A stretch of 64,000 bases of DNA from positions 310,001 through 374,000 of the forward strand of contig JAIQFD010000003.1 of the NCBI GenBank assembly GCA_020073495.1, read 5' to 3'. Numbering within the stretch: the stretch's first letter is position 1; every line of letters begins with the position of its first letter. Under the pieces are notes generated by a model. That model saw only the letters and a list, made by a program, of their open reading frames with translations. It was not told the DNA's origin and made no database searches. Both the position numbers and the translations under genes were made by a program. Positions 32,817 to 33,401 of this stretch are shown here, in pieces. The DNA comes from Terriglobia bacterium (GTDB lineage Bacteria > Acidobacteriota > Terriglobia > Terriglobales > Acidobacteriaceae).

Positions 32817-33401
32817 ATGCGCAAAGCTGTGCTGGCTGTAACGGTGGCATGCCTGCTGGTCTTGTCGGCGGGTGTGGCCCGGTCGTGGGGGAATCCGGAC
32901 AAGAAGGACAGTCCGCCGCTGGGTCTTAAGATCGGGGACACGGCGCCCGATTTCACGCTGCTTGCCTTTGACGGCAAGGAACTGAAGAAGGTGTCGCTCA
33001 GCGACTATCGCGGCAAGAAGAACGTAGCACTCGCGTTCTACGTGTTCGCCTTCACGGGCGGTTGAACCAAGGAGATGAAGGCCTTCCAGGAGAACCTGGC
33101 GAAACTGGAGGCCGCCGACACCCAGGTGCTGGGTGTGAGCATGGACAGCCCCTTCTCGAACTTTTACTTCGCGCAGATGAACGGAGTCACGTTCCCGCTG
33201 CTGGGAGACTGGGGCGGCGAAGTCACCCGCAAGTACGGACTGCTAAAGACGCTGGAGATCCAGGGCACAAAGATGGATACGGCGCGGCGAGCGACCTTCC
33301 TGATCGACAAGAGCGGGAAGATCATCGAAGAGCAGGTGGATAACGAGGCCGTGGACCCGTCGAAGGTTGTGGCGGCGTGCGAGCGGAAGAAGAAGGGGTA
33401 A
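32817..33401 (+). CDS. Peroxiredoxin-like (AhpC/TSA) selenoprotein: TGA at the catalytic Cys
   Basis: Two frame-matched parts separated only by TGA at 33063-33065 form one redoxin of 194 residues. Part 1 gives a signal peptide (about 1-25), KIGDTAPDFTLLAFDGKELKK and ALAFYVFAFTGG; part 2 continues TKEMKAFQENLAKLEA, VLGVSMDSPFSN, FPLLGDWGGEVTRKYG and RRATFLIDKSGKIIEEQ. In the peroxiredoxin motif TxxC the TGA falls exactly on the peroxidatic Cys (T-G-G-Sec83-T-K-E). A short hairpin follows as expected for a bacterial SECIS. The start is ATG at 32817 with GAGGG 7 bases upstream. Likely a peroxide reductase; a sequencing error or nonsense mutation is the alternative. Confidence 0.85.
33063..33100 (+). 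promoter_or_regulatory. Candidate bacterial SECIS element at the Sec codon
   Basis: After the TGA, CCAGG (33086-33090) and CCTGG (33095-33099) pair around the loop AGAA, which starts 26 bases after the TGA and has G as its second base. This fits the published bSECIS rules (apical loop about 16-37 bases downstream, G among its first two bases). The stem is short, and the flanking GCCTT adds little pairing. Confidence 0.5.

Follow-up and report, generated by a model that had tools for sequence, protein, structure and literature searches.

Known selenocysteine-containing peroxiredoxins

A characterised member of the TxxU peroxiredoxins is reportedly an enzyme of Eubacterium acidaminophilum, which we take to be the protein named PrxU. 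TxxU peroxiredoxins are treated as an established selenoprotein family in the available portions of PMC1794560, PMC5029168, PMC9312934 and PMC13188914, in agreement with the premise of an earlier, sequence-only reading of the DNA studied here that some peroxiredoxin-like proteins use selenocysteine (Sec) at the catalytic site. The motif itself is given in the accessible parts of PMC1794560, PMC9312934 and PMC13188914, the family tables naming only TxxU, and the Pro of the extended form PxxxTxxU is described as highly conserved in the portion of PMC13188914 consulted. Bacterial SECIS elements are characterised by a small apical loop bearing a guanosine just after the UGA (excerpts of PMC1088965). 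For Acidobacteria, three families and four selenoproteins are reported in the accessible part of PMC1794560, and three known selenoprotein genes are listed for the acidobacterium Occallatibacter riparius in that of PMC12013277, both as counts without names. Among the matches listed for open-licence PMC papers, no title or abstract opening described an exported group of such peroxiredoxins. The gene analysed here very likely encodes one: judged from its sequence and those of its relatives, it would specify an exported peroxiredoxin with Sec as the peroxidatic residue.

A peroxiredoxin gene interrupted by a single TGA

The window, i.e. the whole stretch of 64,000 nucleotides analysed, comes from a Terriglobia bacterium and contains the following features:

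32817..33401, plus strand: putative selenoprotein peroxiredoxin gene, a single frame that yields 194 residues when the UGA is translated as Sec
32817 (ATG) and 33399-33401 (TAA), plus strand: start and stop codons
32806..32811, plus strand: Shine-Dalgarno-like GAGGGA, 5 nt upstream of the ATG (direct reading)
32817..32894, plus strand: predicted signal peptide at the N-terminus, covering roughly residues 1-26 (hydropathy; end point approximate)
33042..33044, plus strand: V76, at the Pro position of PxxxTxxC/U, non-Pro in 85 of 87 orthologous loci
33054..33056, plus strand: T80, conserved Thr of TxxU (87 of 87)
33063..33065, plus strand: TGA, read as Sec (U83) at the peroxidatic position, which in the alignment with 2ywn is that of the catalytic Cys
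33080..33113, plus strand: SECIS-like RNA hairpin (minimum free energy fold, -15.9 kcal/mol)
33288..33290, plus strand: R158, an invariant Arg (87 of 87) and presumed active-site residue
33378..33380, plus strand: C188, C-terminal Cys and candidate resolving Cys (87 of 87), the only Cys beyond the leader

The TGA at 33063-33065 is the sole in-frame interruption between 32817 and 33401, so that the coordinates, frame and codon are all as the sequence-only reading had them, and the GAGGGA element is present before the start, to which it had assigned a good ribosome site. Under the ordinary code the gene appears as a pair of frames, 32817-33065 and 33075-33401, and so would be easily missed. The similarity that had been described as continuing on both sides of the TGA does so: the Pfam AhpC-TSA domain (PF00578) matches straight across it, at 114.2 bits against a cut-off of 26 (E 4.8e-33). 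The TGA column coincides with the peroxidatic Cys of the solved Sulfolobus protein 2ywn (FYVFAFTGGU versus FYPAAFTQVC), which places it at the catalytic Cys, as had been proposed.

On the upstream side are a TetR-type regulator gene and an AMP-binding gene, on the downstream side a DinB-like gene; all are oppositely oriented, so the peroxiredoxin gene seems to stand alone. A scan with a sigma-70 pattern found no promoter-like site. Elsewhere in the window, an Acido-Lenti-1 RNA (RF01687) was matched at 295-340 on the minus strand (46.1 bits versus a gathering score of 37).

Conservation of the TGA in Acidobacteriota

An order-wide search of 200 genomes yielded matches at E 2.8e-33 or better in 62 genomes, with one in-frame TGA in each of the 62 matches. 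A phylum-wide search of 396 genomes, at a threshold of E 1e-25, gave 50 matches in 48 genomes, all 50 with a TGA and one also with a TAG; the best 30 of these 50 were read by residue and the other 20 by stop count only. In all, 98 loci were read residue by residue, three of them (L088-L090) being repeats, which leaves 95 distinct loci; TGA occupied column 83 in 98 of 98. These loci were sorted into set A (57 loci), set B (30) and set C (8). Sets A and B together make up the 87 top-scoring loci, the window's gene included, and comprise 62 loci from the order search plus 25 more found among the best 30 of the 50 phylum matches, ranked by score. Set C consists of paralogues chosen for carrying a TGA and is thus not evidence of conservation.

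All 87 distinct loci in sets A and B have the TGA exactly on the peroxidatic column (86 of 86 when the window's gene is excluded). The proteins continue in frame to a common C-terminus, contrary to the possibility, raised beforehand as a test of the Sec proposal, that homologues might end at this position. A scan of named genomes with a single protein query gave two further loci, both in metagenome-assembled genomes (L113, Terriglobia bacterium; L114, Acidobacteriota bacterium), and in both this motif likewise contains the TGA. Among the matches listed from the order and phylum genomes, sets A and B had no Cys counterpart within their group, the E 1e-25 threshold of the phylum search being one that would hide distant Cys versions.

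The peroxiredoxin probably carries an export signal. A hydrophobic stretch N-terminal to the domain was present in 55 of the 56 complete set A proteins (locus L068, cut by a contig end, was left out) and in 30 of 30 in set B, but in only one of eight in set C. These leaders are approximate, having been detected by simple hydropathy from start codons chosen by rule.

Active site and proposed catalysis

None of the 87 set A and B proteins lacks U83, T80, R158 or C188, and with T80 and U83 the TxxU motif is complete in every one. Beyond residue 35, all 87 are without any Cys other than C188, which lies near a charged C-terminus and 98-106 residues from U83, mostly 99 (60/87). A structural model predicted with AlphaFold from three alignment rows was poor (pLDDT 57). 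The Val noted earlier in place of the usual Pro four residues before the Thr is indeed present as V76, and the loss is a trait of the group: the motif Pro is replaced in 85 of the 87 proteins by Val, Ile, Leu, Phe or Ser, most commonly Val or Ile.

After export, the U83 selenolate, held by T80 and R158 (presumably the active-site Arg), would reduce peroxide and become a selenenic acid. C188 probably resolves this selenenic acid; it would do so by forming a Se-S bond, either inside one subunit or between two, which an envelope thiol donor would then reduce. The constancy of C188 as the sole Cys after residue 35, and its spacing from U83, are like those of a redox partner, and argue against a 1-Sec enzyme in which an external thiol reduces the selenenic acid directly and C188 serves for linkage to a second subunit or a partner. 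We regard this 1-Sec scheme as rather unlikely, even though Rv2238c, which we take to be AhpE, a 1-Cys peroxiredoxin, is among the nearest solved relatives by profile, and though the position of C188 near the charged C-terminus would suit it.

A further alternative is that the protein is not chiefly a peroxidase, being instead an envelope selenol oxidoreductase with its Pro replaced, or that its substrate is an unusual peroxide. In its favour, the motif Pro is absent from nearly all of the group, whereas the 14 Cys relatives that were read (picked from the stop-free matches of the order-wide search) all keep it, and this loss could alter peroxidase chemistry. The invariant TxxU Thr and Arg158, however, suit peroxide chemistry, and we consider this alternative unlikely. 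The resolving-Cys peroxidase remains our preferred reading.

Selenocysteine machinery and RNA structure after the UGA

The sequence-only reading had suggested looking for selA, selB, selC and selD in the same genome, and all four were found in the assembly that contains the window, which has 8 contigs totalling 3.70 Mb. selB was recognised by its wing domain (E 6.6e-20) and by TIGR00475 (337 bits, above the cut-off), selA at E 4.9e-170 and selD at E 1.3e-112. selC was detected as a tRNA-Sec by RF01852 (65.5 bits) and as a tRNA-SeC with anticodon tca (UCA) by ARAGORN, the other RF01852 match above the gathering score being a tRNA-Ser. Across the order, selB scored above its cut-off in 86 of 200 genomes: 59 of the 62 with the peroxiredoxin gene versus 27 of the 138 without it, 111 genomes having neither (Fisher p 1e-25 over 200 genomes, a value that ignores shared ancestry). 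In the three gene-bearing genomes in which selB did not reach the cut-off, selA scored at least 551 bits (that of G117 in two joined pieces), and their missing selB may reflect assembly gaps.

The RNA structure right after the UGA is under selection across the sets. Synonymous codons were permuted within alignment columns, a procedure that preserves the proteins and the codon use of each column without removing shared ancestry. The 48 nt starting at +9 (counted from the T of the TGA) outfolded 100 of 100 permutations, with z values of -10.2 for set A (57 loci), -6.6 for set B (30) and -2.6 for set C (8), while controls at +60, +120 and +180 gave z values between -1.7 and +1.8. When sequences were instead shuffled by codon usage, the effect had the same direction: the mean z at +9 was -1.89 for set A and -1.78 for set C but only -0.72 for set B, which reached -1.01 at +3.

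Set A's coding stretch from 60 to 13 nt upstream of the TGA also outfolds its synonymous permutations (z -3.1 at -60, better than all 100), as against -0.8 for set B and -0.2 for set C; by codon-usage shuffling, set A gave -1.09 at the same place.

In the window, the hairpin has an outer stem GGCCUU/GAGGCC and an inner stem and loop CCAGG-AGAA-CCUGG, the loop AGAA lying at 33091-33094 and its G33092 27 nt after the UGA. Taken alone it gave a z of only -1.14, with 26 of 200 shuffles folding as well, so the case for a SECIS element rests on the sets and not on the window's sequence. In set B, the hairpin at columns 19-38 has a tight loop and one bulged base, usually U, and is paired in 91.7% of cells; 18 cells were changed on both sides, compared with 5.0 for shuffles and a maximum of 10 when the structure was slid, and G-C, C-G and A-U were all seen at one pair, although the number of pair types was not above that of shuffles (281/500 reached it). 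In set A, a 13-nt loop is enclosed by a stem of columns 21-28 and 42-49, which is paired in 93.4% of cells, with little covariation (292 of 500 shuffles reached its count of pairs changed on both sides). RNAalifold consensus energies were small (-0.44 kcal/mol for set A and -0.96 kcal/mol for set B).

The hairpin differs by clade, tight-looped with a bulged base in set B and with a longer loop or a two-part stem in set A. The short hairpin CCAGG-AGAA-CCTGG was considered as the structure of set A as a whole and rejected as insufficient by itself.

Given that the frame is single, the UGA conserved, the Sec machinery complete and the RNA structure selected, SelB with Sec-tRNA(Sec) would recode the UGA through the downstream hairpin. 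The original assignment as a probable selenoprotein peroxiredoxin is thus strengthened by the conserved TGA, the selA, selB, selC and selD genes and the selection on the RNA. Decoding of the UGA as another residue, by a suppressor tRNA or general recoding, would equally leave the frame open once read through, but the occurrence of the gene tracks selB, a selected structure follows directly, and the UGA sits on the catalytic Cys column, all of which makes such decoding very improbable. That the gene is simply a Cys peroxiredoxin with a sequencing error, a nonsense mutation or a pseudogene stop, for which it can be said that TGA is one base from TGC or TGT, was rejected and is given almost no credence, because the TGA is kept on the same column in all 87 loci, in a genome with Sec machinery and in an RNA under selection.

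Other UGA-containing genes of the genome and phylogeny

In-frame TGA codons were also found in a second peroxiredoxin of the same genome (L084, a set C member at G000:C4:206921-208346), on the same column, and in its selD (L011, G000:C4:414172-418095), within GUASK. Counting the gene described here, this genome has three or more UGA genes whose sequences fit Sec. Among formate dehydrogenase candidates (PF04879), none of four matches had a stop within the matched domain, the part that was read.

In a tree of 57 proteins (midpoint root, with a warning from the tool of long branches meeting), the 35 set A and B rows formed one group, apart from 12 Bcp-like Cys relatives, with support of 90/90, which is below the tool's mark for firm support. 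A separate clade mixed the eight set C rows with two Cys proteins.

Comparison with known systems and implications

These observations suggest that a probably exported peroxidase in Acidobacteriota is selenium-dependent, no Cys version having appeared among the orthologues found; selenium supply may then bear on envelope peroxide defence in this phylum. With the motif Pro almost uniformly absent from a Sec enzyme, the group would offer a direct way to probe the role of this Pro when selenium replaces sulphur. More tentatively, and with somewhat less than even confidence, the group might constitute a separate, exported, apparently Sec-only Acidobacteriota subfamily with a Pro-less site and a C-terminal resolving Cys, whose envelope peroxide or selenol chemistry is not taken over by a Cys enzyme.

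With the TxxU family (PF00578/COG1225) the window's protein shares the AhpC/TSA fold, the Thr three residues before the peroxidatic Sec and, in its gene, a hairpin just after the UGA, as these traits appear in the accessible parts of PMC13188914, PMC9312934 and PMC1088965. What would be unusual for a TxxU peroxiredoxin is the combination of a probable export signal, an invariant C-terminal Cys, Pro loss in 85 of 87 loci and no Cys orthologue seen. Because the Pro of PxxxTxxU is absent, here as across those 85 loci, the gene is filed, on its predicted protein, as a variant of the TxxU kind. Against the NCBIfam PrxU equivalog (NF040737) the protein scored 70.4 bits, far below the cut-off of 270. 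Prx-SUH (NF045827), listed in the available part of PMC13188914, is a selenoprotein thiol peroxidase, as the window's protein would be, but there its motif is CxxU rather than TxxU, and the window's protein scored 46.3 bits versus a cut-off of 298.

The closest solved relatives by sequence or profile, Rv2238c and the Sulfolobus peroxiredoxin 2ywn/4g2e, differ in having Cys in place of Sec and in the presence, in both, of the motif Pro. Within the genome itself, a likeness is seen in L084: it and the rest of set C have the UGA at the same column and, across the set, better folding after it. Set C differs, however, in lacking the leader in seven of eight, in lacking the conserved C-terminal Cys, in keeping the Pro in eight of eight, and in belonging to a clade with two Cys forms among the Sec forms.
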